Shown here: positions 1,809 through 20,036 of the stretch, in pieces
Layout of the letters: every line of letters begins with the position of its first letter
How positions within the stretch are numbered: position 1 is the first letter of the stretch
IMG/VR virus record: IMGVR_UViG_3300002052_000002
Location: 1-64,000 of that record
Strand: one strand, 5' to 3'
DNA from: a virus
Length of the DNA stretch: 64,000 nucleotides
Notes under the pieces: model-generated
Databases searched by the model: none
The model's input: the letters and a program-made list of their open reading frames with translations, nothing else
What the model was told of the DNA's origin: nothing
Position numbers and translations under genes: made by a program

Positions 1809-2360
1809 TCATTCTTCATCCTCATATTCTTCTTCCCACAGTTCGTCATCAAAACGAGTATGGTCAACATATATCTCATCAAGATTTATTTCATCAATAG
1901 TTGGAGTTCCTCGATGGGCAGGTCTCAATTCATCTTCCACCCATTGCCATGTAACTGTTGGTCGTCCTTCTCCCCATCTTAATGGTGGTGGAGTGGGAGG
2001 AGCTGGTTGACGCTCCATAGCTGGTTCCCAATTTGCCCACCTATATGTTCGTTCTCGTAATTCTCCCTCTACTGGTGCTGCTTCTAAGTCAACTAAAATA
2101 TCAGGGATTTCTTGCCAATAAGAACGACCACGATAATCATATATACAATGACCATGTGGTTCTCCAACATTTGGGTCTTCTAATATCAATTGTATTCTAT
2201 CAGATGTGCATTTATCGCATGTGCTAGGACAGGGTTCTATTGCGCGAACTAGCCAGACTCTTCCTACCCTAGAATTACGTTCTGACTCGTGTACTTCGTT
2301 AGGAATTTTACCTTTGAAAATATCGTGTTCTAGATTGTCCTTTTCATGCAATATCTTCAT
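1809..2360 (-). CDS. MKIL-type hypothetical protein (183 aa)
   Basis: Begins MKILHEKD, the N-terminal signature shared by many proteins of this arm. A CPSTCDKC cluster near residue 45 could bind a metal. The second half has a proline stretch (PAPPTPPP) and a very acidic C-terminus (WEEEYEDEE). Ribosome site AGAGG lies six bases before ATG 2360. No known family. Confidence 0.7.
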   Translation of the reverse strand: MKILHEKDNLEHDIFKGKIPNEVHESERNSRVGRVWLVRAIEPCPSTCDKCTSDRIQLILEDPNVGEPHGHCIYDYRGRSYWQEIPDILVDLEAAPVEGELRERTYRWANWEPAMERQPAPPTPPPLRWGEGRPTVTWQWVEDELRPAHRGTPTIDEINLDEIYVDHTRFDDELWEEEYEDEE

Positions 2361-2450
2361 ATGTGACCTCTCAGCTCGAAATCGGCGGATGAACCCCGCC
2401 CTCTACCTTCTTATATACGTCCTTATATCTAGAATCTCTTCCCCCTGCAA

Positions 2451-2627
2451 TTATTCTATTATAATAACACCATCTTCGTTACAAGTAATTCTGGTAATCA
2501 TTCGTTCACACATAATGTTCACAGGCAACATTACTGTAGATTTCTCATCATATCTTTTAAGTTGTTTTATTAGCTCCCCACAACTTAATCCTTTACGAAA
2601 ATAACGTGAATCATATTTGGTGTTCAT
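2451..2627 (-). CDS. Small hypothetical protein (58 aa)
   Basis: ATG 2627 is preceded by GGGAGG at good spacing; an in-frame ATG four codons earlier overlaps that site and is rejected. The protein has an SCGELIKQLKRYD helix and a beta-rich C-terminus ending in VIIIE. The gap upstream (2640-2800) is very A+T-rich with repeated TATATA and could hold its promoter. Confidence 0.65.
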   Translation of the reverse strand: MNTKYDSRYFRKGLSCGELIKQLKRYDEKSTVMLPVNIMCERMITRITCNEDGVIIIE

Positions 2628-2699
2628 CTTGCCTCCCATTGTAGCGTTTCCCTTCCCTCAAAATTAGATAACTTGCCCAAAATTACGCCAATTTTTACT

Positions 2700-2790
2700 T
2701 CCTGAAGGTATATATATAATAGTTATATATTAAGATTGTTCGAGGTTATATATAAAATAATATATAGTAGATGTGATTTTTATGGTTTAT
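2700..2790 (-). promoter_or_regulatory. A+T-rich intergenic stretch, possible promoter
   Basis: About 90 bases almost entirely A and T with repeated TATATATA and TATAAT-like blocks on both strands, lying between the 35-residue membrane gene and the gene at 2451-2627. I cannot place a convincing -35/-10 pair, so this is a candidate by composition only. Confidence 0.3.
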
Positions 2791-2811
2791 CACTTAGTAA
2801 AAAGCCGCCCA

Positions 2812-2919
2812 TCAGCCATCCATCTTCTTATTAGCCAGCCATCGTACAAATTTGAAGAACCAATACATAATTAAGAAGAATGTTACGATTCTGCAAACAA
2901 CATCAATCGTTGGTTCCAT
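2812..2919 (-). CDS. 35-residue single-pass membrane peptide
   Basis: ATG 2919 has GGAG seven bases upstream. The product begins MEPTIDVVCRIVTFFLIMY and forms one hydrophobic helix flanked by a basic stretch (KFVRWLANKK). It overlaps the preceding zinc-ribbon gene out of frame by 17 bases, typical for this arm. Family and role unknown. Confidence 0.6.
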   Translation of the reverse strand: MEPTIDVVCRIVTFFLIMYWFFKFVRWLANKKMDG

Positions 2920-3067
2920 CTTTTGACTCCATTTCTAATTGATTCTTTATTGGTAGTCCGCATATTGGACATAGAATAATGCCTTCTGGGCCTAATTTAC
3001 ACACAGTCCCTTCCACTAATTTACATTGACATTTCAGCCATATAGGCCATTTATATTTACTTTCCAT
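2903..3067 (-). CDS. Zinc-ribbon microprotein (54 aa)
   Basis: Carries CQC near residue 13, a further Cys at 23 and CPICG near residue 33, a compact zinc-binding arrangement. GAGAGG lies immediately before ATG 3067, a tight spacing. It starts six bases after the stop of the next zinc-ribbon gene upstream. Function unknown. Confidence 0.65.
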   Translation of the reverse strand: MESKYKWPIWLKCQCKLVEGTVCKLGPEGIILCPICGLPIKNQLEMESKDGTND

Positions 3068-3072
3068 ACCTC

Positions 3073-3288
3073 TCACTTCTCAGGGTATTTGTAATCACAT
3101 GATGTTTTAGAACATTTATATGCGGTTAATCCCCACATCTTTTCATATTCGACAAGGTCTGAACCACAGATTGGGCATATCCCAGCATTAATACAAGTAT
3201 TGATATATCGTCTTTGTCTATTCTTCTCTTCTAGAATGTTGATAGCTTTAGCCCAAATGTGTGGATTTATTGTTATTTCTTTAGACAT
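3073..3288 (-). CDS. Zinc-ribbon microprotein (71 aa)
   Basis: N-terminal helix (ITINPHIWAKAINILEEKNRQ) then CPICG and, near the end, CSKTSCDYKY, giving a four-Cys ribbon. It abuts the 63-residue membrane protein upstream, implying coupled translation. Unknown function. Confidence 0.7.
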   Translation of the reverse strand: MSKEITINPHIWAKAINILEEKNRQRRYINTCINAGICPICGSDLVEYEKMWGLTAYKCSKTSCDYKYPEK

Positions 3289-3480
3289 TTATTTATCCCT
3301 CCAGATATACCCTATTAAGCATCCGAAGAATACAAGAGTCAATGCAGCAGAGAAGAATGTACATAACGCCACACTAAAGTCATTAGTATCCGTCATCGCC
3401 TTTTCTCCTACAAACCTCCAAAACCATATTGAGCCGATACCTGCACCTGAAAATATTGTGGTTAGTACCCATTTATCCAT
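3289..3480 (-). CDS. Two-helix membrane microprotein (63 aa)
   Basis: Two predicted membrane segments: residues about 4-24 (VLTTIFSGAGIGSIWFWRFV) and about 36-59 (SVALCTFFSAALTLVFFGCL). An AGGAGG ribosome site precedes ATG 3480. Holin-like topology is possible, but there is no lysis gene beside it, so I do not assign one. Confidence 0.65.
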   Translation of the reverse strand: MDKWVLTTIFSGAGIGSIWFWRFVGEKAMTDTNDFSVALCTFFSAALTLVFFGCLIGYIWRDK

Positions 3481-3489
3481 ATTTTCCTC

Positions 3490-3615
3490 CTATACTAAAG
3501 GTAGAACGATTCTTTGACAGGCCATGCACCAGTAGTATTTCATCACTTTTTCCCAAATGACCGAAACACTTCGACAAATAGGACATTGATGTATTTCGTA
3601 AAGACCTGTTTCCAT
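3490..3615 (-). CDS. Zinc-ribbon microprotein (41 aa)
   Basis: ATG 3615 has a strong AGGAGGTGAA site. Two knuckles, CPIC and CMAC, spaced by about 17 residues with aromatic filling, make a minimal zinc ribbon. It fills the gap between two larger neighbours. Function unknown. Confidence 0.65.
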   Translation of the reverse strand: METGLYEIHQCPICRSVSVIWEKVMKYYWCMACQRIVLPLV

Positions 3616-3623
3616 TTCACCTC

Positions 3624-3818
3624 CTATAAGTTAGAAGCCCATGTTAAATCATCTAACCAGAAATAATAAAATTTATCACAAAATCCACAATGGAAATCCC
3701 CTGCAACTCTATTAACTTTGTGGTCTTCTATTACACAGTTAAATGCACACCGTTCACATCTTCGCCCACATCTTGGACATACTGCATAATCATAAATTTT
3801 ATTCTTCAGTATTTTCAT
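3624..3818 (-). CDS. MKIL-type zinc-ribbon protein (64 aa)
   Basis: Starts MKILKNKI, identical over eight residues to the N-terminus of the protein at 6512-6817 although the rest differs. Cys pairs CPRCGRRCERC and CGFCDKF suggest two metal sites. Overlaps the upstream gene by 20 bases. Unknown function. Confidence 0.7.
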   Translation of the reverse strand: MKILKNKIYDYAVCPRCGRRCERCAFNCVIEDHKVNRVAGDFHCGFCDKFYYFWLDDLTWASNL

Positions 3819-4206
3819 TCTGCACTCTTGGTCTTCGAACTCTTGTTGGCTTTACCCAAGGACGATTAAATATCCATGCAAATGCCTCTACACATAATGA
3901 ATCTACACGTCTTTTCCTTGCTCTACGATAGAATATTATATTTCCATTACACCTAGTGTGGTCAGTTATTCCCCTTATTTCTGGAATACATGGTCTATTT
4001 CCAATCCATTGTGGTCTTTCTCCTTCTGGTAGCACTCTATAACATAAAATCCCTTCTGAAGTGTCACGAGTTATCGTAACAAATTCAGGCGGTTGCGGTC
4101 TCCAAAACTGGTCTCCATAGAATTCCTGCCACGTTTCAGGGTCTGGACACCATCGTGTTCCTACTTTGTATTTCTCGAATGGGTCATTATGTTCAAGAAT
4201 CTTCAC
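3799..4206 (-). CDS. MKIL-type hypothetical protein (135 aa)
   Basis: Starts MKILEHNDPFEKY. Rich in Trp, Pro and Arg, with a basic stretch YRRARKRRV near residue 95 that could bind nucleic acid. First of a run of five overlapping MKIL-type or helicase genes reaching 6511. No known family. Confidence 0.7.
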   Translation of the reverse strand: MKILEHNDPFEKYKVGTRWCPDPETWQEFYGDQFWRPQPPEFVTITRDTSEGILCYRVLPEGERPQWIGNRPCIPEIRGITDHTRCNGNIIFYRRARKRRVDSLCVEAFAWIFNRPWVKPTRVRRPRVQNENTEE

Positions 4207-4465
4207 CAGTAAGCTCCTTTAAATCTAATGTTATATAGTCTCCTGCCACATATGGCTCTGTTCGTAGTCTCTTTATTATATAACTTAACCTAATAATCCC
4301 TAGTCTTTCCATACATTCTGTTCGCCTACAGGATACTATGGTATCTATTGGTAATGGTTCTCCACACAATGGGCAAAGTTCAAGTCCTATATCTGATAGG
4401 ACTGAGAGTTTTTCAACAAGTTTTATATTCACACATTTATTTTCTACTTGGTCGAGAATCTTCAT
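4193..4465 (-). CDS. MKIL-type zinc-finger protein (90 aa)
   Basis: Starts MKILDQVENK. CPLCGEPL near residue 31 and CRRTEC near 46 form a likely four-Cys zinc finger, followed by a helix and a short beta-rich tail. It overlaps its upstream neighbour by four bases (ATGA). Unknown function. Confidence 0.7.
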   Translation of the reverse strand: MKILDQVENKCVNIKLVEKLSVLSDIGLELCPLCGEPLPIDTIVSCRRTECMERLGIIRLSYIIKRLRTEPYVAGDYITLDLKELTGEDS

Positions 4466-4851
4466 CTTTTCCTCTTACGACGACACGCTCTCTTTATTTT
4501 CATTTCCTTATTAAATTTGATATTCTCTTTTCTAATACGAGATTCAGTGAAGAGAATTGTTTCAGTAGTTAAATTTTCAGAAAGATAAACCTTCGATTTA
4601 TTTTTCTTTATATGCTTTAAACTTTTAATGATATTATGAACTTCTTCTTCTAGTCTTTCGAAAAGTTCTTGGTCTAAGAAATCTTCATCGTCCATACAAC
4701 GAGCACATAATGGATAATATCTTGCTGTTAATAGTTTATCTCCACAAACTACACAAGTAGTTATATCTTTATCTAATTCCCACCAACCACCTCGCACCTT
4801 CCGAAAATGCATAGGAAATCGTTTTGGATGTTGGATTTCTAAAATCTTCAT
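4462..4851 (-). CDS. MKIL-type zinc-finger protein with basic tail (129 aa)
   Basis: Starts MKILEIQHP. CVVCGDK and CARCMDDED make a zinc finger near residues 33-53; a charged helix follows; and the C-terminus (KIKRACRRKRKR) is highly basic, consistent with nucleic-acid contact. ATGA overlaps at both ends indicate translational coupling. Confidence 0.7.
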   Translation of the reverse strand: MKILEIQHPKRFPMHFRKVRGGWWELDKDITTCVVCGDKLLTARYYPLCARCMDDEDFLDQELFERLEEEVHNIIKSLKHIKKNKSKVYLSENLTTETILFTESRIRKENIKFNKEMKIKRACRRKRKR

Positions 4852-5078
4852 CGGCGTCTCCTAACATAAAAATTATTTTCAAAATATTCTAACCCCCATT
4901 CTAAATGGTCTTCGCAGACCCAATGTCCCAATCCTCTATTTATTAACCAGTAATCAACATGGTTACGGCAAGGACGTTCTCCAAGATTATTGCGGTAAAT
5001 ACAGACACCGTGCGTTGGAATCCTATCAAATCTTCCATGAGGTACTTCAACTATTGGTTTCTGTTTTAGGATTTTCAT
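4848..5078 (-). CDS. MKIL-type hypothetical protein (76 aa)
   Basis: Starts MKILKQKP. Three cysteines and several histidines (CIYRNN, PCRNHVDYW, VCEDHLEW) could form a mixed Cys/His metal site, and the tail is YVRRRR. Immediately downstream of, and coupled by ATGA to, the SNF2 helicase gene. Confidence 0.7.
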   Translation of the reverse strand: MKILKQKPIVEVPHGRFDRIPTHGVCIYRNNLGERPCRNHVDYWLINRGLGHWVCEDHLEWGLEYFENNFYVRRRR

Positions 5079-6511: not shown

Positions 6512-6817
6512 TTATCTCTCATCGTTATCTGAATAGATTGGGTTCCCATTTGCATCATATACCATAAATGCTCCTGCTAGTAGACCTCCTCTATGGAGAT
6601 GAGCGTAGTCTTTCAGACATATTCCTGATGCTTTTCTTCCATCCTCTGACCATCTAAAATGATATAAGGTATAGTCCCACTGGCAGTTATTTTTATAACG
6701 GCATTGTGCTATTCTATGGCACACAGAGTGTCCGTAATTTGTCCAACGCCCTCTTTCTGCGCTAGACTTAAGATAACATCCTTGAAAGTTTAATATTTTA
6801 TTCTTCAATATCTTCAT
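6512..6817 (-). CDS. MKIL-type Cys-rich protein, paralogue of the 6814-7137 gene
   Basis: Starts MKILKNKI. The core (VCHRIAQCRYKNNCQWDYTLYHFRWSEDGRKA, cited in parts: a C-x5-C-x5-C cluster then TLYHF and SED) aligns with the next gene's CDREPRCAYSKRKGC, TLFHL and SEA. A shared Cys/His cluster suggests a zinc finger of CCCH type. Tandem duplication is the simplest origin. Unknown function. Confidence 0.7.
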   Translation of the reverse strand: MKILKNKILNFQGCYLKSSAERGRWTNYGHSVCHRIAQCRYKNNCQWDYTLYHFRWSEDGRKASGICLKDYAHLHRGGLLAGAFMVYDANGNPIYSDNDER

Positions 6818-7137
6818 ATTATTTCATCCTCGAAAACAGGCACCCATTCGGAGTCCCTGCTTTCACTCCTATATAATAACCACTTTCCTGCTTCTGGTCG
6901 CTCCCCACGATAGTGTAAATAATTTACAAGACATAGATTTTCTGCCTGCCGGAGAGCCTCTGAAAATTGTAGATGAAATAGAGTATGGTTAAAAGGACAT
7001 CCTTTCCTTTTAGAATATGCACAACGCGGCTCTCTATCGCATTGGTGGTAATCATATATATACCAATGTCCTACTTTCCCATTAGCCAGGAGTTGGTATT
7101 CCCGCCAATCTTTATCTTTATGACTCAGTATCTTCAT
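6814..7137 (-). CDS. MKIL-type Cys-rich protein, paralogue of the 6512-6817 gene
   Basis: Starts MKILSHKDK. Contains CDREPRCAYSKRKGC followed by FNHTLFHLQFSEA, a C-x5-C-x7-C-x3-H arrangement that resembles CCCH zinc fingers, which usually bind RNA. Overlaps the downstream paralogue by ATGA. The common core plus common N-terminus supports duplication. Confidence 0.7.
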   Translation of the reverse strand: MKILSHKDKDWREYQLLANGKVGHWYIYDYHQCDREPRCAYSKRKGCPFNHTLFHLQFSEALRQAENLCLVNYLHYRGERPEAGKWLLYRSESRDSEWVPVFEDEII

Positions 7138-7285
7138 AATATTCTTCTAATCCTTCTTCAACTCTCTTTTTCTCTTTTGACCGACTATATACTGTTGTTG
7201 GGTCTATGACTTTATTTGGCTTCAAAGGTGCTCTAACAGGGACTTTCCACTTCTTTTCCTTTAATCGCTTATAGTTAGTCTTCAT
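7118..7285 (-). CDS. Basic microprotein coupled to the amidotransferase (55 aa)
   Basis: ATG 7285 overlaps the stop of the amidotransferase gene as ATGA. The protein is very basic in its first half (NYKRLKEKKWKVPVRAP) and acidic at its end (EEGLEEYYEDTES). No domain recognised. It overlaps the start of the next MKIL-type gene by 20 bases. Confidence 0.6.
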   Translation of the reverse strand: MKTNYKRLKEKKWKVPVRAPLKPNKVIDPTTVYSRSKEKKRVEEGLEEYYEDTES

Positions 7286-8973
7286 CCTGCATGCCCTTCG
7301 CTTTCTACTTGCTTAACGCATTCATCATGCTTTTGGCAGTATAGACAACTATGTCTTTTATATTTGAGCATTACATTAAATGGCTCATACTCTCCACAGA
7401 CATACGCTCTATCTCCAAATTTATCAAACTTATCTGCGGATTGACGATTGCTGCCTACATTCTTATTTGTATTGCTGGCGTTTCCTTCAACTGGAACAGG
7501 GAGATTCTTTACTTCTTGTTTTGCCTGGTCTACTGTATCTTTCCCCTCTTGCTTATCTCTTTCATAGACACTTTCAAGAACTCTCTGTTCTATCTCATCG
7601 ACATTCGTGAAATCGAATCTCATTATTTCGTCTTCTACTTTAGTTTTTCCATGCTTTATTGTGAAGACGATTTCAACATCGTCTATTCCAATGAAGTCAT
7701 ATCCTTCTAATTCTTTTGGCATTTTATCGTCGTCTGGAGCAAGAGTTATAGCAATGATGTTGTCTCTGTGGTCGAGATACGCCCGTATGAAAGTTGTCTC
7801 TCTACGTTGGTAGGAATATCCTTGAACAAGGCCAATTTCTCCCTCAGCGATAGCGTCGTCAATATCCATGAGGAAATGTTTCTTCGCCTCTTGGTCCCAT
7901 TTCTTTGCGAGCTGCCTATCTGTACTGACATAACCTTTCCCAGAAGTTAGCTTTACCCAATCGTTGAAATCTTTAGAATTTCCATCGAACCAAAACTTAT
8001 TATGTTTCTCTGTGAAAGGAAATTCTTGATAGTCTAACCACGCTTGGATGTCGGGGTCAAAGTAATATCCATATTCCTCATCAGTCTTTGGGTCAAGTAG
8101 CTGAGTTGTATTACTTTCGTCCTTGTTCTTATCTTTATCTGTATTCCTATTGTATCTATCTCTCCAATGTTCTCCTTCAGAATATCCGTCCCATCCATTC
8201 CATCCATGACCCCCTATATAACCATGTCCAGCTCCATAGAAATATCTAGATTTGGTTTTGTATGTAAAAAGCTCTTTGATTTCGATAGGATTTACAGATA
8301 TCTCATACATAACTTCATCTTTCATTCTGAGGACTGTTCCATCTGGGAATCCATTAAATCCCCCACTATTGAGGAATTTTGGAATCGAATTGAATATGAT
8401 ATCATCGTCAGATGCAAAGATTATCATCTTTCTATGGGGACGAAATCCTAAATATACTGGAGAAACATACCTTGTGATAAAAATCTTATGCGGGTTCTTC
8501 TTTTCCAGTATAACGAAAGACCCACTACCATATCCAAGCCAAGGCATGGCTTTTTCCATCCCTTCCGTTTCTACATAGGATAGAAAGATTTCTGTATCAA
8601 CCTCACCCTGATACTTGTAATCTTTCAGCTTTGGCAAAGAATGAAGCATACCATTATGGATGGCATAGTAATGTTCAGACTCTACTGGATGGTTATTGAC
8701 ATTATCTTTCTCTGACCCCATTGTGGCAGCTCTGACATGTCCGAAAGCTAATACAGCTTTACCTAATGGTTCCATGAATTTATGCATATGAACTTTGTCA
8801 TAGTTCTCTGCATCTAATGGAGCTTTATGTGTAGTTATATTCCCTTCTTTATCCACACAAAGTAATCCAGTAGCATCACGACCTCTGAGTCTTGAGTTAT
8901 ACATAAGCCTTCGGAATACTTCAGCATTCTCTTTCTTTGGCTCTGGTGTAACGAATCCGAAAATACCGCACAT
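7282..8973 (-). CDS. Class II glutamine amidotransferase
   Basis: A 563-residue Ntn-hydrolase. Cys2 follows the initiator Met (MCGIFGF), and the class II motifs are in order: RGRDATG (about 30), GHVRAATMG (about 78), NNHP (about 92) and HNGM (about 105). The family releases ammonia from glutamine for a partner synthase or amidates a product. Residues about 250-290 are glycine-rich, and the long C-terminal half, ending in CLYCQKHDEC, matches no synthase domain I know; it may be the acceptor or channel domain. Only two bases separate it from the upstream amidoligase gene, so the two are co-translated and probably work in one pathway. Confidence 0.9.
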   Translation of the reverse strand: MCGIFGFVTPEPKKENAEVFRRLMYNSRLRGRDATGLLCVDKEGNITTHKAPLDAENYDKVHMHKFMEPLGKAVLAFGHVRAATMGSEKDNVNNHPVESEHYYAIHNGMLHSLPKLKDYKYQGEVDTEIFLSYVETEGMEKAMPWLGYGSGSFVILEKKNPHKIFITRYVSPVYLGFRPHRKMIIFASDDDIIFNSIPKFLNSGGFNGFPDGTVLRMKDEVMYEISVNPIEIKELFTYKTKSRYFYGAGHGYIGGHGWNGWDGYSEGEHWRDRYNRNTDKDKNKDESNTTQLLDPKTDEEYGYYFDPDIQAWLDYQEFPFTEKHNKFWFDGNSKDFNDWVKLTSGKGYVSTDRQLAKKWDQEAKKHFLMDIDDAIAEGEIGLVQGYSYQRRETTFIRAYLDHRDNIIAITLAPDDDKMPKELEGYDFIGIDDVEIVFTIKHGKTKVEDEIMRFDFTNVDEIEQRVLESVYERDKQEGKDTVDQAKQEVKNLPVPVEGNASNTNKNVGSNRQSADKFDKFGDRAYVCGEYEPFNVMLKYKRHSCLYCQKHDECVKQVESEGHAG

Positions 8974-8974
8974 T

Positions 8975-10654
8975 TTAAATTCCCTCCGTTTCTTGGATTG
9001 ATGCTTGTAAAATCCAACCTATCCTTCTATATAGTCTTTCATTCTTTTTAGCCCCCTGTGCCCAGATAGTAGGGAATAGAATAACCACATCTGGATATGG
9101 AGCTTGCCCACGCCGTTGTGTTAAATATTGGTAATCTTGAGAATACTTCAATAAATCATCCACTGTCTTATAATTTAGATGCTCGATATAATGTAGCCTT
9201 GCCACTCTATCTAATTGTTCAATTGCTTTCCTTGAGATTCCGAAGCTGACCAGAGAGTTACCACTATACTCTATCTGGACAGATATATTGTGTCTCAATC
9301 TGCAAGGAACAGGAGTGAAATATTTCTTTATATCGGCATTCCTAGAGATAATAGTAATAGAAGAGCGTCGCTTCTTCGCTATTCTCCAGTTTGGAGCGAT
9401 ATCGACTCCTTCCAATTTAACCTTACCTTTGTTCGTTACAAACATTTCGATGAACATATCTATATCTTTTTTGTAGGCATAATATAATGGGAGGGATTTT
9501 AATGTATGAATCGTCTCTCCATCTTTATATGCCCCATCGTATACCGCTTTAGTCAAAGCATATGTAGTCACAATGATACATTGGCACATATCTTCAGATA
9601 CTATATAAGAAGGTAATTGTCTCCATTCCCATCCACCGTGTGGCTTGTTCGGTCTAAACGCATCACGGCCACCTTCTCGTATAATGTCTGTAAGGTCATT
9701 TCTGATTCCAGTTTGATGTTTAAGTACATATATGCCAATATGCTTGTGTAATAGATGTGGTAATTCTTTAGGATACGATTTCTCACTGAAATGGATATGC
9801 CCGCCAGTATTTACTTTAGTTCCACCACCAGCAAAGATGAGAGATTCAGGTGGAATCGATTCTGAATTGAGAAGTTTCCTCATTACCCTTTTGATATTTC
9901 TCATCAAGTGATAAGGACTTCTGCCAGGGTCTGGACGTATCTCTCCAGTTTCTAGATGACCATCAGTTCCAATCTCTTTACCACCATGGAAAAATACATT
10001 AGCTCCAATGAGCCGTCCTCTCTTATCTATTATCTCAAATTCTGGGTCAGCCCCAACGAGTAAAGATTTGGAGAATATCCTACCAGAAGTTCGTACTTCG
10101 TGGATTTTAGTAAGAATATCTTTCATAAGTGGCACAAACTTTTGGGCAAGATGGGTAATGTCTGAAAGCCATAATAGATTAACTTTCAGGTTATAAAATC
10201 CCATCTCACTTCGGTCAGCATCATTTATAAAAGTGATATCCTTCTGAATATTTCCAGGCAGTTCTATATATTCTTTCTGGTAGCGATGAGATAATGGAAT
10301 GGTAACAGTGATTGGTACGAATCTTGGAGTCTTTATGCGAAGATGGGCAAGGATTTCACTTCTATTATATTCCCTTGTAGTTGCAGTTCCTTCATCATAT
10401 TCGCAGTAGATATAGATTGTGTTTGGTTGTAAGATACCGTAGCCTTGTGTTCCATCTGGATGTGGGTCATCCAGTCTTCTCATATGGTCGACACTATATT
10501 CTTTCATATCTCTACTAAGTACCATAACACCATTATGAGATACAATAGTTTTTAGTTCGCACCGTCTGATTAGAGGAGCCAATTCTTCTACAGCATCCTT
10601 TGTACAACCTTCATGCTCCATCAAGATTTCAATAGGATACTTAGCTCCTGTCAT
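8975..10654 (-). CDS. phiEco32-type COOH-NH2 amidoligase (559 aa)
   Basis: Glutamine-synthetase-fold amidoligase. Signature motifs are GADPEFE (about residue 203), GTDGHLETGEIRPD (about 230), TGGHIHF (about 285) and WEWRQLPS (about 345), the acidic and His residues that bind ATP and metals in this family. These enzymes join a carboxyl to an amine, probably on a peptide or amino-acid substrate. The first 200 residues are a distinct N-terminal region. It sits directly upstream of the glutamine amidotransferase, and a second amidoligase lies at 15602-16873. The substrate is not deducible from sequence. Confidence 0.85.
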   Translation of the reverse strand: MTGAKYPIEILMEHEGCTKDAVEELAPLIRRCELKTIVSHNGVMVLSRDMKEYSVDHMRRLDDPHPDGTQGYGILQPNTIYIYCEYDEGTATTREYNRSEILAHLRIKTPRFVPITVTIPLSHRYQKEYIELPGNIQKDITFINDADRSEMGFYNLKVNLLWLSDITHLAQKFVPLMKDILTKIHEVRTSGRIFSKSLLVGADPEFEIIDKRGRLIGANVFFHGGKEIGTDGHLETGEIRPDPGRSPYHLMRNIKRVMRKLLNSESIPPESLIFAGGGTKVNTGGHIHFSEKSYPKELPHLLHKHIGIYVLKHQTGIRNDLTDIIREGGRDAFRPNKPHGGWEWRQLPSYIVSEDMCQCIIVTTYALTKAVYDGAYKDGETIHTLKSLPLYYAYKKDIDMFIEMFVTNKGKVKLEGVDIAPNWRIAKKRRSSITIISRNADIKKYFTPVPCRLRHNISVQIEYSGNSLVSFGISRKAIEQLDRVARLHYIEHLNYKTVDDLLKYSQDYQYLTQRRGQAPYPDVVILFPTIWAQGAKKNERLYRRIGWILQASIQETEGI

Positions 10655-11523: not shown

Positions 11524-11820
11524 TTAAATAACGTATAGAAATTGGCTATAATTGTAGACTGTTGGGCATTGTTCCACTTTATATTTAAATATACGTCCAC
11601 GCCACCATTTTCTATATTTGTTCCAGCTCCCTGCTACGTCCTCAGCATGTCCATATGAAGTATAAATTACCTTTGGACGACCATAAAGTGTAACCATCCA
11701 TAGTGTAGTTGGGTATATCCGCCGTATATCTTTTGCAGCGTAATCTACTATTGGAACTAGCGTCATATCAAAGCCCAATAATGTAGTCTTTATGGTTCCT
11801 TTATGTTCTACGACTTTCAT
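11524..11820 (-). CDS. Hypothetical protein, MKVV start (98 aa)
   Basis: I start at ATG 11820, with GGGGATGAT upstream and directly after the stop of the neighbour at 11822. The MKVVEHKG N-terminus is a variant of the MKIL signature. Rich in Tyr and Trp and probably beta-rich. A longer frame to 11925 would overlap the neighbour by 100 bases and is unlikely. Confidence 0.6.
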   Translation of the reverse strand: MKVVEHKGTIKTTLLGFDMTLVPIVDYAAKDIRRIYPTTLWMVTLYGRPKVIYTSYGHAEDVAGSWNKYRKWWRGRIFKYKVEQCPTVYNYSQFLYVI

Positions 11821-11821
11821 A

Positions 11822-12076
11822 TCATCCCCACAATTGTTCATAAAGATAGGCAATATATCTGGTTCCTTGATGGAAGTTGTGGCAAGCAGTGGGATAAAGA
11901 CGAGTACCTTCACATTTCGTGTCATTTAATTCTTGTGCTAGCTTCTCCAACTCATTAGGATTATTAGTTAAATCCTCCCTAATCCACCAGATTCTGTAGC
12001 CTTTTATTGAATTATCTCGATTCTTTTTGAATGTTTGCTGAGTAAGATATTTTGGCAGATGGTTTAGAATTTTCAC
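11822..12076 (-). CDS. MKIL-type hypothetical protein (84 aa)
   Basis: GTG start at 12076 gives MKILNHLPK; the GTG overlaps the stop of the GNAT gene (GTGA). Contains WWIREDLTNNPNELEKLAQEL, probably a helix pair, then scattered Cys and His. Unknown function. Confidence 0.65.
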   Translation of the reverse strand: MKILNHLPKYLTQQTFKKNRDNSIKGYRIWWIREDLTNNPNELEKLAQELNDTKCEGTRLYPTACHNFHQGTRYIAYLYEQLWG

Positions 12077-12606
12077 TTAATCTCCTTCATCCATACATCA
12101 GTGCCTCGATTTGTAAGCCAAACTTTGCGCCATCTAGTTCTTTTCATAGATTTCGCAGCAACAAGATTATCAGCTTGTACACGAGCTACCATTATATCTA
12201 TCCCATGAGTTTTTGCAATCTCCTCTTTCATAGCATGGAGAACATAAGAATAACCTTTATCACGATATTTCTCCTCAATGCGCATCCCAGAAGAATATAT
12301 GATAAAATTATCTCCACTTATTTCTCCAGCAAGAGTAAGACAGAAACTCCCAAAATAATCACTGAATTTTGCATTGGGAGTTCTAGTATAGATATTCACA
12401 GTTACTCTTTCTCCCCCATCATTTCCTGAATTGAACCAAAGTCTCAAAGAAGCTCCAGATGGTAATAGAACTTTCCAATTATCGAAGACTTTTTCTATGG
12501 ATTCTCTATGGAAAAGTTCTCTTTCCCAAGCATTCTTTTCAACCTTGAGTTTCTTTTCATGCTTAGATACTGTCACAAACATACTATCATTTTGTAATAC
12601 CTTCAT
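12073..12606 (-). CDS. GNAT acetyltransferase, MKVL start (177 aa)
   Basis: The GNAT acetyl-CoA loop region is MRIEEKYRDKGYSYVLHAM (about residues 105-123), followed by a strand and VQADNLVAAKSMKRTRW, where the C-terminal GNAT helix grips CoA. The family transfers acetyl or another acyl group to an amine. The glycine signature is weak (RDKGYS instead of R-x-x-G-x-G/A), so activity is likely but not certain. It starts MKVLQND, a variant of the shared N-terminus. GTGA and ATGA overlaps couple it to neighbours, including the ATP-grasp gene, suggesting a shared pathway. Confidence 0.7.
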   Translation of the reverse strand: MKVLQNDSMFVTVSKHEKKLKVEKNAWERELFHRESIEKVFDNWKVLLPSGASLRLWFNSGNDGGERVTVNIYTRTPNAKFSDYFGSFCLTLAGEISGDNFIIYSSGMRIEEKYRDKGYSYVLHAMKEEIAKTHGIDIMVARVQADNLVAAKSMKRTRWRKVWLTNRGTDVWMKEIK

Positions 12607-13319
12607 TCTTCTCTCCTTTCTAAGAAATTGTGTATGGCGTTAACGAATCGGCGAGCATTTATATCGCCAAATTCTGGTCGGCTATTAACCTCAAGAACAT
12701 ATAAGTTTCTTCCCTGCATAATAATATCTACCGCACCAAAATCATATTCTAATGCTCTCAACGCTGCCTCTCCTATATTTTTGACGTTTCGACGCAGACC
12801 TCTTTCTTCTCCAACTCCGCCCCATCTTGCTCCTCTATGTTCATTCCATCTGAAGTCCCCATTGGCAGGGGCAAACTTTTCCATAAAGAAAGCCATTATG
12901 CGATGAACCATCATCGCTCTGAACTCTCTATCCTTCTCTATATATTCCTGATATAATTGGTCCCGTTTGAAGCCAGGTCTATTAGTCAATCTCATGCCAG
13001 TTCCCATCTGTCCTACATCTGGTTTAACTACCAAGCGTGGATTACCTGCTCTCTCCCACTGTGCTCTAGTATTATAGACAGTTGGGACAGCAACTCCAGC
13101 ATTTGTAAATAAACGATTCTGCTCTACTTTTCCAATCACTAATCGTGGATTGAGAATTCTCACTCCATTTGGATAGTGTCCTTGGAACCTGCCATGATTA
13201 GCTCCCCATCTTACGATAGTATCACCACGACCAGCTCTTCCATTATAATGTCGCCATCCTCCAATATCAGCAATCCTTCTCCAAGTAGTTAAATGTGCGT
13301 CTGCATCGATGTAAATCAT
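12603..13319 (-). CDS. ATP-grasp ligase (RimK/YheC-like)
   Basis: A 238-residue ATP-grasp protein. RLVVKPDVGQMGTGMRL (about residue 97) is the nucleotide-binding Lys plus flexible glycine loop, and YVLEVNSRPEF (about 212) is the metal-binding E-x-N motif preceded by FGAVDII. ATP-grasp ligases make amide bonds through acyl-phosphates. ATG 13319 overlaps the previous stop (TAATG) and has AAAGGAG upstream; 26 extra codons in a longer frame are rejected. Its company (GNAT, amidoligases, amidotransferase) suggests peptide or amino-acid ligation. Confidence 0.85.
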   Translation of the reverse strand: MIYIDADAHLTTWRRIADIGGWRHYNGRAGRGDTIVRWGANHGRFQGHYPNGVRILNPRLVIGKVEQNRLFTNAGVAVPTVYNTRAQWERAGNPRLVVKPDVGQMGTGMRLTNRPGFKRDQLYQEYIEKDREFRAMMVHRIMAFFMEKFAPANGDFRWNEHRGARWGGVGEERGLRRNVKNIGEAALRALEYDFGAVDIIMQGRNLYVLEVNSRPEFGDINARRFVNAIHNFLERREE

Positions 13320-13618
13320 TAGCGTCGTCTCCTTTCTTTGAATAAGAAGAATTCTAATTCTGATTCGGAAATGCACCATATAGAACCATCTTCGCACTCT
13401 ACTTCCATAAAATCTGTTGTGCAGTCTTCACATAAATCAGGTTCTATTAATCTATCATTGTGGTCGGAATAACTATCCTTTGCACATTTCCTATATCCTA
13501 CTATTTTACGCCAATAAGGTTCTTCTTCGTCCTCCGTATCTTCTACATATGCAAGATATGAACCTATTGGTGCTAATTCCTCAACTGTCTTGTGATTTTT
13601 CTGCTTCAATATTTTCAT
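13319..13618 (-). CDS. MKIL-type acidic protein (99 aa)
   Basis: Starts MKILKQKN, the same first seven residues as the 4848-5078 product. An acidic stretch (EDTEDEEEPYW) and a CEDC cluster are followed by SELEFFLFKERRRR. Overlaps its upstream neighbour by 38 bases and the ATP-grasp start by one. Unknown function. Confidence 0.65.
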   Translation of the reverse strand: MKILKQKNHKTVEELAPIGSYLAYVEDTEDEEEPYWRKIVGYRKCAKDSYSDHNDRLIEPDLCEDCTTDFMEVECEDGSIWCISESELEFFLFKERRRR

Positions 13619-13838
13619 CGGCTGATTCCTCAAATTCAGCATCTATTACGTTGGCATCTCTGCCAGGTAATAGTGCTCTACCTCCCTTCATTAGGTACGT
13701 AGTGTCAGAAGTTAGACTTACTTTCTCTACATCACAACCAAGCTCTGCAGCGACGTCTTTCACTTGGTCTAGGATGTATTCGAGGTAGTCCATATCATCA
13801 TCGTGAATTTGAATGTCAAGTTCTATCTTCGCCTTCAT
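13581..13838 (-). CDS. Hypothetical protein (85 aa)
   Basis: Starts MKAKIELDIQIHDDD. Predicted alpha/beta with a helix YLEYILDQVKDVAAEL and an acidic tail; overlaps both neighbours by more than 20 bases. No domain recognised. Confidence 0.65.
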   Translation of the reverse strand: MKAKIELDIQIHDDDMDYLEYILDQVKDVAAELGCDVEKVSLTSDTTYLMKGGRALLPGRDANVIDAEFEESADENIEAEKSQDS

Positions 13839-14259
13839 CTTCCTCCCCTATTTGATAGTAATATTCTTCGTCCTCTTCATCCTCAAGCTTATCGCCTCTG
13901 AGAATTCTTTCTATTATATCTAGTGGGATTCCCCTCTCTTTTAAATCCTCTATATAGACTTCATATGGGTCTGTTATAATCATCAACTCAAAGTTTGGGG
14001 AACTATTTCCACATTCTCTGCATTCATATCTATCTATTTCAATTTGTTGATGCTCCTCATCTAAATTTTCTTCAGCTCTTCCAAACTCATCAACAAGTGA
14101 TATTCCCCTAACAGTTGATGTCCACATGGCGACTATGTTCTCTGGAGCTCTACAGGCAACACACCAATACCTACCTCCACCGCCTACACTACTCAGCCAC
14201 TCATCATACGTGGGGATATTTATTTCTTTCTTCTCTGGTTTGTTTAGAATAATTTTCAT
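13816..14259 (-). CDS. MKII-type zinc-finger protein (147 aa)
   Basis: Starts MKIILNKPEKKE. CVACRAPE near residue 33 and CRECGNS near 78 make a zinc finger split by a long acidic insertion. The C-terminus is extremely acidic (EDEEDEEYYYQ). Coupled to the upstream gene by ATGA. Possibly a nucleic-acid mimic or adaptor; not assigned. Confidence 0.65.
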   Translation of the reverse strand: MKIILNKPEKKEINIPTYDEWLSSVGGGGRYWCVACRAPENIVAMWTSTVRGISLVDEFGRAEENLDEEHQQIEIDRYECRECGNSSPNFELMIITDPYEVYIEDLKERGIPLDIIERILRGDKLEDEEDEEYYYQIGEEDEGEDRT

Positions 14260-15151: not shown

Positions 15152-15320
15152 TTCCTTTATCCTCCTCTTCTGGAGTAAAAAGGAGTTTGAAGAATACTTT
15201 CTTACAATCTGGACATTCCATCCTATCGAAAGTAGAATGTATTTTAATCGTAGCCACTCTTACCAATTCGACATGCTTTTTACAGCGAGGACAGAAATGT
15301 ACTATCTTGTCACTTTCCAT
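15126..15320 (-). CDS. Zinc-ribbon microprotein (64 aa)
   Basis: CPRCKKHVE near residue 10 and CPDCKKVF near 36 form a tidy ribbon; the tail is charged (EEEDKGNDKSR). Overlaps the cyclotransferase-like gene by 11 bases. Function unknown. Confidence 0.7.
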   Translation of the reverse strand: MESDKIVHFCPRCKKHVELVRVATIKIHSTFDRMECPDCKKVFFKLLFTPEEEDKGNDKSRSMW

Positions 15321-15600
15321 TCTTCACTCGGTCTCCTCTATACCATACATTTTCTTTTCTAGCTGGAGTCTGTACAAACATCTGCACATCGTCTCCATCT
15401 AGTCTGCCAATAACTACAGGGATGAACAACGCAGTGTATTCCCACGCACAGAGAGGCTCGAATTCTTTCTCAGGAATCTCATAGACTTCTCCATGTATTC
15501 CTTTGAATTCTGCTGCCTGTATAAATTTCCCACCCATCTGTTTCATCTTCCACTCGTTCTCAGCACCCCTTATAAGAGTGCCCCATACGAATAATTTCAT
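15310..15600 (-). CDS. Gamma-glutamylcyclotransferase-like (GGCT/AIG2 fold)
   Basis: FVWGTLIRG at residues 4-12 matches the F-V-Y-G-T-L-R-x-G substrate loop of GGCT/AIG2 proteins. GEVYEIPEKEFEPL and CAWEYTALF follow, placing the expected catalytic Glu near residue 53, then FIPVVIGRLDG. At 96 residues it is near the small end of the family. GGCT enzymes release 5-oxoproline from gamma-glutamyl amines. It lies two bases from an amidoligase gene, an association that makes sense if the pathway builds or trims gamma-glutamyl conjugates. Confidence 0.7.
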   Translation of the reverse strand: MKLFVWGTLIRGAENEWKMKQMGGKFIQAAEFKGIHGEVYEIPEKEFEPLCAWEYTALFIPVVIGRLDGDDVQMFVQTPARKENVWYRGDRVKNGK

Positions 15601-15601
15601 T

Positions 15602-16873
15602 TTATTCCTCCTCTAATTTCTTTTCTGGCGACCATCTGTAGACACAGCCATTCTTATTATCAGAATGAGTATGCCACGACCCATCCAAATACCAATTCTT
15701 ATGAATGGCATTGATATCAAAGAAGTTGTCAACTCCTGAATAAATCATATCTAATAAAGCCTTATGGGTATTCTCGTGGTAGTTTGAGTATCTCCGTTTG
15801 ATAAGTCCTGCAAAGACTGCTTCATTAGATTTTATGACCTTCTTCGCTTTTGGGATATCATAATTATTTATGATTCCTACAATCACATCTTCTTTGACAG
15901 GAAGAATCAATTTGAATATCGGATAATTTAGCCCAAGAAATATAGCTGCTCTCGTCATATCATAAGAGAAATGATATACAACAGGAGAAACTAGGACTGC
16001 AGAACTTGGAGTCCTATATTCAATTCCATGGGATGGGAAACGATATTCCCCCGCTCTTCCATAGTACATCCGTCTTAATGGGCTTTCAACTTTTTGAAAC
16101 ATTGAGACAGACATGATTCCAAAAATGGCATCTGCTGCCTTAATCATATTTATTTTTTCTTCTTCCTTCCTTCCACTTAAGCCAAAATGGAAATGACAGC
16201 CAGCGAATCTAATTGGAAGAGCCGCAGGGTCTTGGACTTGGATGGATGGCGTGTTATAAACATTTTTACTAGGGGCACACCCTAGTTCAATATGCTCTGG
16301 TTTAGCGTCCGCCATTACCTCTGTTGGGATATCCATCACACTTTTGTATGTGAACTGACATTTTCTGTCGAAGGCTCTAGCAGCTTTCCATAATTTGACG
16401 AGTTGATAGTGTGTAGCATCTGTGAAGTATGCTAAACATCCACCATGAGGAACAGTAAATTCCGCCTGGAATCCATCCCAAAATACTCCTTCCCCACTTT
16501 GTTTCGCTGCCTTTTTGTTAGGCAAGAATTTGAAGGCTGGAATTACGATGCCATCTTTGTCCACTACGAATATCTCTGGGTCACCTCCGACGGTGCATCC
16601 TGATACTTGAGCGTAGTGCAATAGCTTTGCCCTACTCTCTGCAGTCATCCCCTTTAAGTCGGCTGTTCCCGCTATAGTACAACGTTCACTCTCTTCCGTC
16701 CTGATGTAGGAACTGTTGCCATTATCGATGTCGATGAGTCTTCCAGATACTATCTTACTTGGTCTGTCATGATACATATCTGTGAAGACGCCGATGGTGC
16801 CCTGGTATTTGATTATCTTACCAGCGCATTCTATCAATAATGGGGGCATCTTCGACCGCCGTTTAAGAATCAT
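15602..16873 (-). CDS. Second phage-type COOH-NH2 amidoligase (423 aa)
   Basis: Motifs are GGDPEIFVVDKDG (about residue 96), FQAEFTVP (about 135), GCHFHFG (about 228) and IEYRTPSS (about 284), parallel to those in the 559-residue amidoligase but divergent between them. The glutamine-synthetase-like fold is expected to form an amide from a carboxylate and an amine using ATP. ATG 16873 has GGAGG at good spacing and overlaps the upstream stop (ATGA). Two different amidoligases in one arm imply either two steps or two substrates. Confidence 0.85.
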   Translation of the reverse strand: MILKRRSKMPPLLIECAGKIIKYQGTIGVFTDMYHDRPSKIVSGRLIDIDNGNSSYIRTEESERCTIAGTADLKGMTAESRAKLLHYAQVSGCTVGGDPEIFVVDKDGIVIPAFKFLPNKKAAKQSGEGVFWDGFQAEFTVPHGGCLAYFTDATHYQLVKLWKAARAFDRKCQFTYKSVMDIPTEVMADAKPEHIELGCAPSKNVYNTPSIQVQDPAALPIRFAGCHFHFGLSGRKEEEKINMIKAADAIFGIMSVSMFQKVESPLRRMYYGRAGEYRFPSHGIEYRTPSSAVLVSPVVYHFSYDMTRAAIFLGLNYPIFKLILPVKEDVIVGIINNYDIPKAKKVIKSNEAVFAGLIKRRYSNYHENTHKALLDMIYSGVDNFFDINAIHKNWYLDGSWHTHSDNKNGCVYRWSPEKKLEEE

Positions 16874-17125: not shown

Positions 17126-17353
17126 CTACATATGTAAGTCTACTAGTTCTTTCAAATGCTTTCGTGCTTCATTTTTCTCTTCTTCAGTAGAAGCCATCCA
17201 ACAATTGAAGTGCATATAAGTACGAGTATTCTCTTTGGGTTCTCCACATTTGAAACAGTGAGTTAAAACGAATTGCGAATTTCCAAGGTCATTTCTGATA
17301 AGAGTGATGCCGATGTCTACTTTTTTCTCTTCCCATTTATGAAATACTTTCAT
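17126..17353 (-). CDS. MKVF-type zinc-finger protein (75 aa)
   Basis: Starts MKVFHKWEEKK and resembles MHLFHEWEKVVEKK (22670-22897) and MCWHKWKAI (27925-28182), so it belongs to an H-x-W group in this arm. CFKCGEP near residue 33 with NCWMAS later gives a partial zinc finger. Shares one base with the zincin stop/start region upstream. Confidence 0.65.
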   Translation of the reverse strand: MKVFHKWEEKKVDIGITLIRNDLGNSQFVLTHCFKCGEPKENTRTYMHFNCWMASTEEEKNEARKHLKELVDLHM

Positions 17354-18027: not shown

Positions 18028-18207
18028 TTAGACATCCTTATATGTTTTATGTGGCGGGATTCTATATCCTATTCCACCTTCATACTTTAGTTCTTGTGGT
18101 AATAACCTGCGGTTACAAATAGGACATCTCACACGCCTACGCTTATCCAAGAATAAGACATTACTACATGGACACCACTTATAGGTTCGTTTCTTTTTTA
18201 GTAGCAT
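18028..18207 (-). CDS. Zinc-ribbon microprotein (59 aa)
   Basis: Starts inside the RNA-ligase gene end, out of frame, with AAGGGAAG six bases before ATG 18207. CPC near residue 12 and CPICNRR near 28 form the ribbon, with basic flanks (KKKRTYKW, KRRRVR). Coupling and basic charge suggest a role alongside the RNA ligase, by inference only. Confidence 0.65.
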   Translation of the reverse strand: MLLKKKRTYKWCPCSNVLFLDKRRRVRCPICNRRLLPQELKYEGGIGYRIPPHKTYKDV

Positions 18208-19060
18208 AGTGTTCTTCCCTTACTCTACGTTTCACCATCAACGCAGTTTCCCTTCCAATAGCCTTTTTTGCTGCTTCGGTTATTTTAACTTCCTCTTTGC
18301 CCTCTTTCTCAATATCTTCTATCATTAAGGAAATGATTTCCCCTATATTTTCAATTGCTAATTCAACCTTCCCACTCGTGATTATATGATTTAACCTTTC
18401 CTCAGTCACCCACTCATCCACGATGTCTTTTGCTTCTTCCAACATCTTAAGTTTATCTAATACTTTCCTTGGAGTAGCTGTTTCTCTGAACTCATCCCGC
18501 TTATGTTTAGCAATTATTCTTTTACCATCGTTCTTAGTCACCTCTTCTAATGGGCGGAGAACAATTCCCTCTCTTTTATGTCCAGCTCCCATACCGTTAC
18601 GAATAGCTTGGACAGAGTCTGCATCTCTCTCCGCATCAATAGCTTCGAGAGTTGTGGGTATTCGTTTGTAATGCACAAACTCAAGTCCTAATCTCTCACA
18701 GAACTTCTCTGCTTTGAGAACGTTCAACCAAACATTCCCAATCTTTACTTCGAAGCAAACGAATTTTGGTGCATCTCCGTAAGTAGCTGACATCCTTTGG
18801 AATTTACTACCATAGAACTCTCCGTATACGTGGATACTCCTATTTGGAGGAGATACCTCTTTGAATATCTCAAGCAATTTCCCCTCATCAAATAACTTTA
18901 CGAATATTTTATGAGGAAATCCGCCTGAGAAGAATGATATATTACCATTCTTATAACTAATATGAGCGGAAGTTCCATGTATCTTTTCCAGCGCATAGCA
19001 CTCTTTGAATTGAAAGATGTCTTGATTTTTGTAGAGATTATCTATATCCATATAGCTCAT
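18179..19060 (-). CDS. Rnl2-type RNA ligase
   Basis: A 293-residue nucleotidyltransferase. Motif I is ALEKIHGTSA with Lys near residue 26; motif III HVYGEFYG (about 80); IIIa FEVKI (about 105); IV EGIVLRP (about 167); V IAKHK (about 185). The family adenylates itself, then seals 3'-OH and 5'-phosphate RNA ends, commonly repairing host-cleaved RNA in phages. A helical C-terminal domain of about 90 residues follows. ATG 19060 is preferred to 19096 because GGGAGG lies six bases upstream. No polynucleotide kinase is seen in the window. Confidence 0.88.
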   Translation of the reverse strand: MSYMDIDNLYKNQDIFQFKECYALEKIHGTSAHISYKNGNISFFSGGFPHKIFVKLFDEGKLLEIFKEVSPPNRSIHVYGEFYGSKFQRMSATYGDAPKFVCFEVKIGNVWLNVLKAEKFCERLGLEFVHYKRIPTTLEAIDAERDADSVQAIRNGMGAGHKREGIVLRPLEEVTKNDGKRIIAKHKRDEFRETATPRKVLDKLKMLEEAKDIVDEWVTEERLNHIITSGKVELAIENIGEIISLMIEDIEKEGKEEVKITEAAKKAIGRETALMVKRRVREEHYATKKETNL

Positions 19061-19081
19061 ATAACGCCTCCCTATAAAATC

Positions 19082-19119
19082 AGATTGGCTTTTCAAGGGT
19101 TAGTTGCTGAAACCAATCT
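19082..19119 (-). repeat. Stem-loop element 1
   Basis: Closing stem AGATTGG (19082-19088) with CCAATCT (19113-19119). The - strand loop begins TTTCAGCAACTAAC and ends TGAAAAG, allowing an inner TTTCA/TGAAA pairing. It lies upstream of the RNA-ligase start. A degenerate companion, GCAGGAT (19130-19136) with ATCCTGC (19151-19157), follows and shares the CAGGATAG flank seen beside element 5. Confidence 0.75.
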
Positions 19120-19164
19120 TCGAAGATTTGCAGGATAGATAGGATTCCTCATCCTGCGAGTTAT

Positions 19165-19401
19165 TTATAAATACCTATTGGGCCAAAATACACTATCAGT
19201 CGAAACATCTCCCGAAGAACCACAAATATCTCGATAATAGAATTCCGTATGACAGTGTACACAAATTCCTTCAGATTTGAGAATTTTGCAGATGGCTTGA
19301 GCTGCCTTTTTACTTAATCCGTTTAACCGTGTATCACCTGTTATGATATAATGTTTTTTCCTCCACAAAAGTTTCTCTCTACTATTAATTTCGTATCTCA
19401 T
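19165..19401 (-). CDS. Hypothetical protein (78 aa)
   Basis: ATG 19401 follows GGAGG. A central helical stretch (LSKKAAQAICKILKSEG) precedes CVHCHTEF, one half of a zinc knuckle, with a further Cys in RDICGSS. Flanked on both sides by stem-loop elements 1 and 2. Unknown function. Confidence 0.6.
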   Translation of the reverse strand: MRYEINSREKLLWRKKHYIITGDTRLNGLSKKAAQAICKILKSEGICVHCHTEFYYRDICGSSGDVSTDSVFWPNRYL

Positions 19402-19435
19402 AAGACCTCCTTTAGTCATCCCCTCTAAACTATTC

Positions 19436-19489
19436 AGGCTGGAGGTTTTCAGATTAAATGTCTGAGCCTTTGGTTGCTGAAACCAGCCT
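19436..19489 (-). repeat. Stem-loop element 2
   Basis: AGGCTGG (19436-19442) pairs with CCAGCCT (19483-19489). The loop, read on the - strand, starts TTTCAGCAACCAAAG and contains an extra hairpin CAGA/TCTG. It is preceded on the + strand by CTAAACTATTC, the same 11 bases that precede element 6. Confidence 0.75.
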
Positions 19490-19496
19490 TCAACAC

Positions 19497-19715
19497 TTAT
19501 ATTATCTTTACCTGATTAAGTTCGATGAAAAACTTCTCTCCGCAACCTGCACACTGTAGATAGACAGGATTATTTCTGTCGTCTCTTATTCTGAAGAATG
19601 CGTAGCCACAACTACATACCCACGTTCTTGGTTCTACTACTACAGGAGACCAGTGGGCTTCTCGTTTTAGTGTTGGTTTTGTGGCATGGGAACCAATCCA
19701 AAATTTTATACTCAT
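19497..19715 (-). CDS. Zinc-ribbon protein, paralogue of the 21248-21451 gene
   Basis: WVCSCGYAFFRI and LQCAGCGEKFFI form a ribbon that aligns with FTCSCGTSSFEI and AECVGCNEKFPL in the paralogue; both have a C-x-C first knuckle. Starts MSIKFWIGS. Immediately follows element 2. Unknown role. Confidence 0.7.
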   Translation of the reverse strand: MSIKFWIGSHATKPTLKREAHWSPVVVEPRTWVCSCGYAFFRIRDDRNNPVYLQCAGCGEKFFIELNQVKII

Positions 19716-19963
19716 CTCTTTCCCCCTCTCTTACTTAACTTCATTGGGTTGATTTTCTTTTTACTTGTTGGGTCAATTACTACAGGTAGTATGTGAGTTC
19801 TACTTGCACATCCGCCCAGCTTTGTCCATAATTTAGTAGGCTCTACGTGCCTATCACAAATCTGCCCCCATTTGATATGGTCACATCCTTCATCTTGTTG
19901 GCACTTCTGATGGAGCTCTAAGTTACTGAATTGATTAATGCTTCTTGATATTCCGAATATCAT
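19712..19963 (-). CDS. Cys-rich hypothetical protein (83 aa)
   Basis: ATG 19963 has AGAGGAG upstream. Cysteines and histidines (HQKCQQDEGCDH, ICDRH, GGCASRTH) could bind two metals; the tail is basic (KKKINPMKLSKRGGKR). ATGA-coupled to the zinc-ribbon gene downstream. Confidence 0.6.
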   Translation of the reverse strand: MIFGISRSINQFSNLELHQKCQQDEGCDHIKWGQICDRHVEPTKLWTKLGGCASRTHILPVVIDPTSKKKINPMKLSKRGGKR

Positions 19964-20036
19964 TTCTTCTCCTCTTCGTAGACCCATCTTGCCCAAAAGT
20001 TTGTCCATCAAGGTCGTTATGGTGGAATATCTTCAT
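19935..20036 (-). CDS. 33-residue MKIF peptide resembling a DHH-phosphoesterase N-terminus
   Basis: GGAGGG precedes ATG 20036. MKIFHHNDLDG is the typical opening strand and metal motif of DHH-family phosphoesterases (H-N-D-x-D-G), but the frame stops after 33 codons. It may be a truncated relic of such a gene, a free peptide, or just a member of the MKIL group that resembles DHH by chance. Overlaps the next gene out of frame. Confidence 0.45.
   Translation of the reverse strand: MKIFHHNDLDGQTFGQDGSTKRRRNDIRNIKKH

Follow-up and report, generated by a model that had tools for sequence, protein, structure and literature searches.

The window analyzed here, 64,000 nucleotides in length, corresponds to positions 1-64000 of a 112.9 kb phage contig from IMG/VR (labelled G000), in which the structural genes occupy the plus strand at about 36-90 kb and the minus-strand arms carry the replication genes together with many small genes. 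No close cultured relative of the phage was found: a search of phage records with its DNA returned no match, and its best protein matches are those of the terminase (about 28% identity) and the portal (about 20-25%). Nineteen genes of this contig can be considered convincing carriers of one N-terminal motif, MK[IV][LF]x[HNQ][KDN] or a close variant of it (hereafter the tag); 13 of them lie within the window and the other six at 94-109 kb (Table 1). The tagged genes are confined to 1-20 kb and 94-109 kb, and the arm at 20-36 kb contains none among its 32 small called genes. In the following, individual genes of the window are designated by the coordinate at which they start.

Table 1. Genes with the N-terminal tag in G000, with the doubtful and rejected candidates of the window.
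Feature	Coordinates	Strand	Length	Remarks
Tagged gene	1809..2360	-	183 aa	MKILHEKD...
Tagged gene	3624..3818	-	64 aa	MKILKNK..., Cys-rich; 20 nt overlap with preceding gene
Tagged gene	3799..4206	-	135 aa	GTG start, MKILEHND...
Tagged gene	4193..4465	-	90 aa	MKILDQV..., CxxC pair
Tagged gene	4462..4851	-	129 aa	MKILEIQ..., CxxC pairs
Tagged gene	4848..5078	-	76 aa	MKILKQK...
Tagged gene	6512..6817	-	101 aa	MKILKNK...; paralog of 7137
Tagged gene	6814..7137	-	107 aa	MKILSHKD...; paralog of 6817
Tagged gene (variant)	11524..11820	-	98 aa	MKVVEHK...
Tagged gene	11822..12076	-	84 aa	GTG start, MKILNHL...
Tagged gene	12073..12606	-	177 aa	MKVLQND...; acetyltransferase-like by eye only, no match in Pfam or PHROGs
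Tagged gene	13319..13618	-	99 aa	MKILKQK...
Tagged gene	13816..14259	-	147 aa	MKIILNK...; orthologs in G006 and G009
Doubtful member	19935..20036	-	33 aa	ORF MKIFHHND, overlaps a gene conserved in G009
Not counted as tagged	17126..17353	-		MKVFHKWE...
No tag	22670..22897	-		MHLFHEWE...
Six tagged genes beyond the window	94342, 94523, 97056, 106604, 106767, 108798			contig positions

The initial annotation had drawn attention to a series of MKIL-type starts, and every one that it listed is present on the minus strand where it was reported. Thirteen of these, including the variant at 11820, were retained; 17353 and 22897 were dropped, and 20036 is doubtful. The product of 22897 belongs to a family that begins with MHLFHxW; its ortholog in the related phage G009 (1.7e-8) starts with MHLFHKW and not with the tag of that phage (see below), and 17353, on likeness judged by eye, probably belongs to the same family. 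The shared start is of the MK(I/V) type, as had been claimed, and extends to residue 7: in a per-position table built from 22 genes of G000, three of which were dropped later, residues 2-4 carry much information (K, I/V, L/F), residues 5-7 still give a clear signal (polar, with H/N/Q at 6 and K/D/N at 7), and the information declines from residue 8 on.

Such a start is not equally common in other phage proteins, a check that had been proposed together with the motif. Of the 166 genes called automatically in G000, 13 begin with MK[IV][LF]; a set of 131 other viral contigs has 3 such genes among 1223 (Fisher p=3e-10). This comparison is conservative, since many of these contigs were chosen because they contain a stretch coding for MKILKHK. 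The MK[IV][LF] start was found in one of 313 genes in two relatives of the phage taken together and was absent from the portions of SPO1, T4, phiEco32 and CHP58 that were sampled. When all N-terminal patterns of three positions were scanned without supervision, K2-I3-L4 was likewise singled out; it occurs in 10 genes of G000 (shuffled maximum: 5). Copies of the motif inside genes mostly reflect starts that the gene caller had placed too early, including the sole full-motif copy, and the rest are at chance level. A search of viral contigs for stretches that code for MKI[LF]KHK or MEISKN[KR] (the latter from the relative described below) revealed several starts only in the contigs of these phages, in addition to a Gly-rich repeat (L108).

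Two relatives with long contigs were identified via the portal protein: G006 (102.6 kb; 63% identity, tblastn) and G009 (110 kb; 69%, with an alignment). Portal relatives were also sought in bacterial genome contigs, with no result, and the shorter portal-related contigs contain chiefly structural genes and are uninformative on tags. The comparison of tags covers three genomes and uses predicted gene starts. Both relatives bear their own version of the tag instead of MKIL. In G006 it takes the form M[EQ][IL]S[KEP]N[KR] (wider form M[EQDK][ILKM]S[KEP]N[KR]) and is found in 46 genes; a search of this genome with ATG-AAR-ATH-YTN-NNN-MA, which codes for MKI[LF]x[HNQK], gave no match. In G009 it is of the MPLEILxN type, M[PSGTV]L[EDK][IF][LI]xN, and is found in 13 genes. 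The unsupervised scan recovered both versions, as E2-S4-N6 in 12 genes of G006 and as L3-E4-I5 (and L6, N8) in 8 genes of G009, with column shuffles reaching at most 4-5; the portions sampled from SPO1, T4, phiEco32 and CHP58, like one bacterial sequence, gave no such outlier. The tag comprises 7 residues (9 in G009) and is carried by 13 to 46 genes per phage. Its versions differ strongly between lineages (K2/L4 vs E2/S4), and yet M-KILKNK, M-EISKNR and MPLEILENK, when aligned by eye, have the core [M/L]-[K/E]-[I/L]-[L/S]-x-[N/H]-[K/R] in common.

One trio of orthologs consists of 14259 in G000, 13250 in G006 and 104358 in G009, whose bodies are homologous (blastp E 1e-6, 3e-7 and 0.004) and whose N-termini represent the own tag of each lineage: MKIILNK, METSKNK and MSLDFIKNK, respectively. 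A Cys-rich family common to G006 and G009, whose homology was judged from the shared C..C..C.H..PH..C pattern in the alignment, behaves in the same way (MEISKNR vs MPLEILINQ). The DNA polymerase is tagged in G006 (MDISQNV), whereas its orthologs in G000 (MTPKLTK, about 47% identical) and G009 (MTECQDC) are not, which indicates that the tag is an optional addition. Taken together, these predicted proteins indicate that the version of the tag goes with the genome rather than with the gene.

It is well supported that selection acts on the peptide and not on the DNA or RNA, as the initial annotation had argued from the free variation of codons. The mean pairwise nucleotide difference within the tag is the same as when these peptides are encoded with synonymous codons drawn at random, both in G000 (0.395 observed vs 0.389 +/- 0.008) and in G006 (0.427 vs 0.432 +/- 0.008); in G009 the codons are slightly more alike than expected (0.244 vs 0.293 +/- 0.018). 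In G006, AGY encodes the invariant Ser of the tag in 25 genes and TCN in 21; these two codon classes are more than one mutation apart. Some codons of the G006 tag are skewed (GAA at residue 2, AAG at residue 5), and those of G000 agree with the codon usage of the genome. No motif was found upstream of the tagged starts apart from the ordinary ribosome-binding peak, and a search of Rfam returned no family match. The codon diversity, together with these two negative results, rules out a DNA or RNA signal or a start cassette, and the codon test rules out recent copying of such a cassette in G000 and G006, with the slight excess of similarity noted above for G009.

The proteins that carry the tag are mostly 40-180 residues long. 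About half of those in G000 are small and Cys-rich, and in G006 four or more Cys residues are present in 30 of the 46 tagged proteins vs 16 of 80 untagged small proteins (p=8e-7). The G006 set also includes, besides the DNA polymerase, three membrane-like proteins. The bodies had been described as unrelated, which goes too far: most of them show no similarity at E 0.01, but a few homologous pairs were detected, such as the products of 6817 and 7137 (2.5e-10), and G006 contains groups of paralogs as well. The tagged bodies that were compared with PHROGs and with cultured phages matched neither a family nor a phage protein. In an AlphaFold model of the trio protein, which covers this one protein and was built from an alignment of three sequences, residues 1-7, i.e. 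the tag, have pLDDT below 50, while the body is mostly confident; in this well-modelled case the tag is thus predicted to sit outside the fold, as an unstructured N-terminal tail. A fold search with this model gave no significant match; the best one, to the anti-CRISPR AcrVIA2, had an E value of 0.026, superposed poorly and was left aside. A model of the Cys-rich family had low confidence and was set aside.

The tag is short, predicted to be disordered, retained at the N-termini of different proteins, and altered in concert from one lineage to the next; a docking motif accounts best for these properties. With belief and doubt about evenly balanced, we propose that the tag is a short linear motif by which the tagged proteins dock to a common partner. 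According to this scenario, the first 7 residues (9 in G009) would serve as a docking tag on mostly small accessory, non-structural phage proteins, and the partner, most likely encoded by the phage itself or a host factor to which the phage has adapted, would bind it and thereby gather the tagged proteins at one place or in one complex. Tag and partner would change together, resulting in a separate version of the tag in each lineage. We infer the existence of the binding partner and its co-evolution with the tag, as well as recruitment as the outcome, in preference to degradation, packaging or modification; a single type of partner across the lineages is presumed as well, although the K2/L4 vs E2/S4 difference counts against it. 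Short terminal peptides that dock unrelated proteins to a common partner are known from the cargo of encapsulins and bacterial microcompartments; most of these form amphipathic helices or extend the C-terminus, unlike the tags described here. A search of the open PMC literature with a few terms returned no description of such a tag, and searching for the tag sequences themselves yielded no relevant hit.

The nearest precedent among phages is provided by the internal proteins of T4, in which ipI, ipII and ipIII have a common short N-terminal sequence before different bodies. The internal proteins of T-even phages are highly diverse and only this capsid targeting sequence (CTS) is conserved (PMC3012670). 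By analogy, the tag could send proteins into the prohead, and the likeness is real inasmuch as both are short conserved peptides at the N-termini of otherwise different small proteins. However, the T4 sequence (MKTYQEF / MKTFKEF) differs from MKILxHK, MEISKNR and MPLEILxN, and three ip genes were read in T4 compared with the 13-46 tagged genes here. Moreover, the tags are lineage-specific, the DNA polymerase and the membrane-like proteins tagged in G006 are unlikely capsid cargo, and no prohead protease of the Peptidase_S77 or S78 families was matched in G000, G006 or G009, although a very divergent protease could escape such a search. T4-style packaging is weakened by these differences as a role of the tag, and we regard it as quite improbable. 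Even less probable, in our opinion, is that amidoligase-type enzymes encoded in the neighborhood attach something to the tag. It is true that genes for COOH-NH2 ligases, ATP-grasp, glutamine amidotransferase and GGCT-like proteins are interleaved with the tagged genes in the window, that peptide-modifying modules of this type are known from phages (phiEco32-like COOH-NH2 ligase, PF14395), and that G009 also encodes ligases and an amidotransferase. However, G006, which has the largest number of tags, exhibits no match to the ligase (PF14395) or amidotransferase (PF13522) families, and modification by amidoligases is therefore unlikely as a general role, as far as family matches can tell.

It is also conceivable that the tag has no function of its own and represents the conserved N-terminus of a single ancient family of small zinc-knuckle-like proteins, which evolves rapidly and underwent repeated duplication. 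The enrichment of Cys-rich bodies among the tagged genes of G006, the groups of paralogs in G006 and G000, and the C..C..C.H..PH..C family shared by G006 and G009 agree with such an origin, and part of the tagged set, in which many proteins are Cys-rich and some are paralogs, may indeed have its common tag by descent. Nonetheless, the tag is also found on membrane-like proteins and on a DNA polymerase with untagged orthologs, and its retention where the bodies have no detectable similarity left would itself require a function; we consider this explanation unlikely for the set as a whole, yet deserving serious attention. A somewhat poorer candidate is an adaptor of a protease that would read the N-terminus and, at a particular time during infection, remove the tagged set or spare it. 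Such a mechanism would suit soluble, membrane and enzyme proteins alike, and a short, N-terminal and predicted disordered motif would be an appropriate substrate, but no adaptor was found. Furthermore, the change from K2/L4 to E2/S4 would, to our knowledge, alter any known class of N-terminal degron, and the G009 motif begins only at residue 3, after a residue that we take to favor removal of Met. Finally, expression of the tagged genes could be boosted by their initial codons or by the emerging peptide, as early codons do affect protein yield (PMC6920384). The tagged genes of G000 tend to have weaker ribosome-binding sites, as estimated with a crude score that is biased, because the gene caller selects starts by this very score. 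However, the tag codons are free, the tags do not fit the pattern favored in E. coli at codons 3-5, i.e. K or N followed by I or Y (PMC6920384), and three different peptides would need to serve highly conserved ribosomes. Such an aid to translation is hardly probable.

The initial annotation had proposed a shared targeting, packaging or modification tag. The shared tag itself is supported by two relatives with their own versions and by the orthologous trio, while the arguments given above speak against amidoligase modification as its general role and weaken packaging of the T4 type. It is tempting, albeit rather far-fetched, to extend the docking hypothesis and to regard the tag as a 7-residue address of each lineage with a matching reader, which would distinguish the phage's own proteins from host proteins or from the proteins of related phages that infect the same cell. 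Such an arrangement, no less speculative, would amount to an orthogonal, genome-wide address code for proteins, present on a large part of the accessory ones.

Whatever binds the tag would bind all tagged proteins, and would therefore offer a handle on the function of small uncharacterized phage proteins. The tag would also mark a coordinated set of proteins in phages without a cultured relative, and it would provide phage biology with a short, portable targeting peptide.

Of the genes that open with the common N-terminal peptide (the tagged genes), three each share exactly 20 nt with the gene before them. At these overlaps tag codons 6-7, which read CAT or AAT and then AAA or GAT, provide in another frame the TAA or TGA stop of that preceding gene. 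At the doubtful tag member, the MKIFHHND start lies in a frame different from that of the conserved gene, to which a frameshift could join it.

Location of the features discussed
Feature	Record	Position
20-nt overlaps	window	3799-3818; 7118-7137
20-nt overlap	whole phage contig	94323-94342
Amidoligase-type set	window	7282-10654; 12603-13319; 15310-16873
MKIILNK tagged gene	window	13816-14259 (-)
RNA ligase (PF09414)	window	18179-19060
MKIFHHND start	window	20036
Conserved gene (with the start, 19712-20036)	window	19712-20011
DUF2828/DUF7788 protein	window	25272-26747
C[IV]NGS[LI]C paralogs	G006 (L123)	3.7-4.8 kb
MKILKHKY ORFs	L108	879; 1016; 1374

Interspersed with the tagged genes is an amidoligase-type set, comprising two phiEco32-like COOH-NH2 ligases, a GATase_6 amidotransferase, a RimK-like ATP-grasp protein and, weakly, a GGCT-like protein. 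The ligases and the amidotransferase are present as well in the portal-related phage G009; none were found in G006, another such relative. The RNA ligase, also conserved in G009, is encoded on the same strand as the DUF2828/DUF7788 protein, some 6 kb away.

A fold search with the predicted structure of the MKIILNK protein gave no significant match, the top hit being the anti-CRISPR AcrVIA2 (E 0.026, with poor superposition).

In the unrelated viral contig L108, MKILKHKY opens three ORFs ahead of Gly-rich stretches; these ORFs probably make up a tandem-repeat gene. The record MW495066 (L210), deposited as Microcystis phage MaAM05, looks from its gene content like a piece of a bacterial genome rather than a phage: genes for ribosomal proteins, SecE, NusG and enzymes of metabolism lie in its first 50 kb.

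In G006, four adjacent tagged paralogs share the C[IV]NGS[LI]C motif, which suggests that a small Cys-rich family has expanded.
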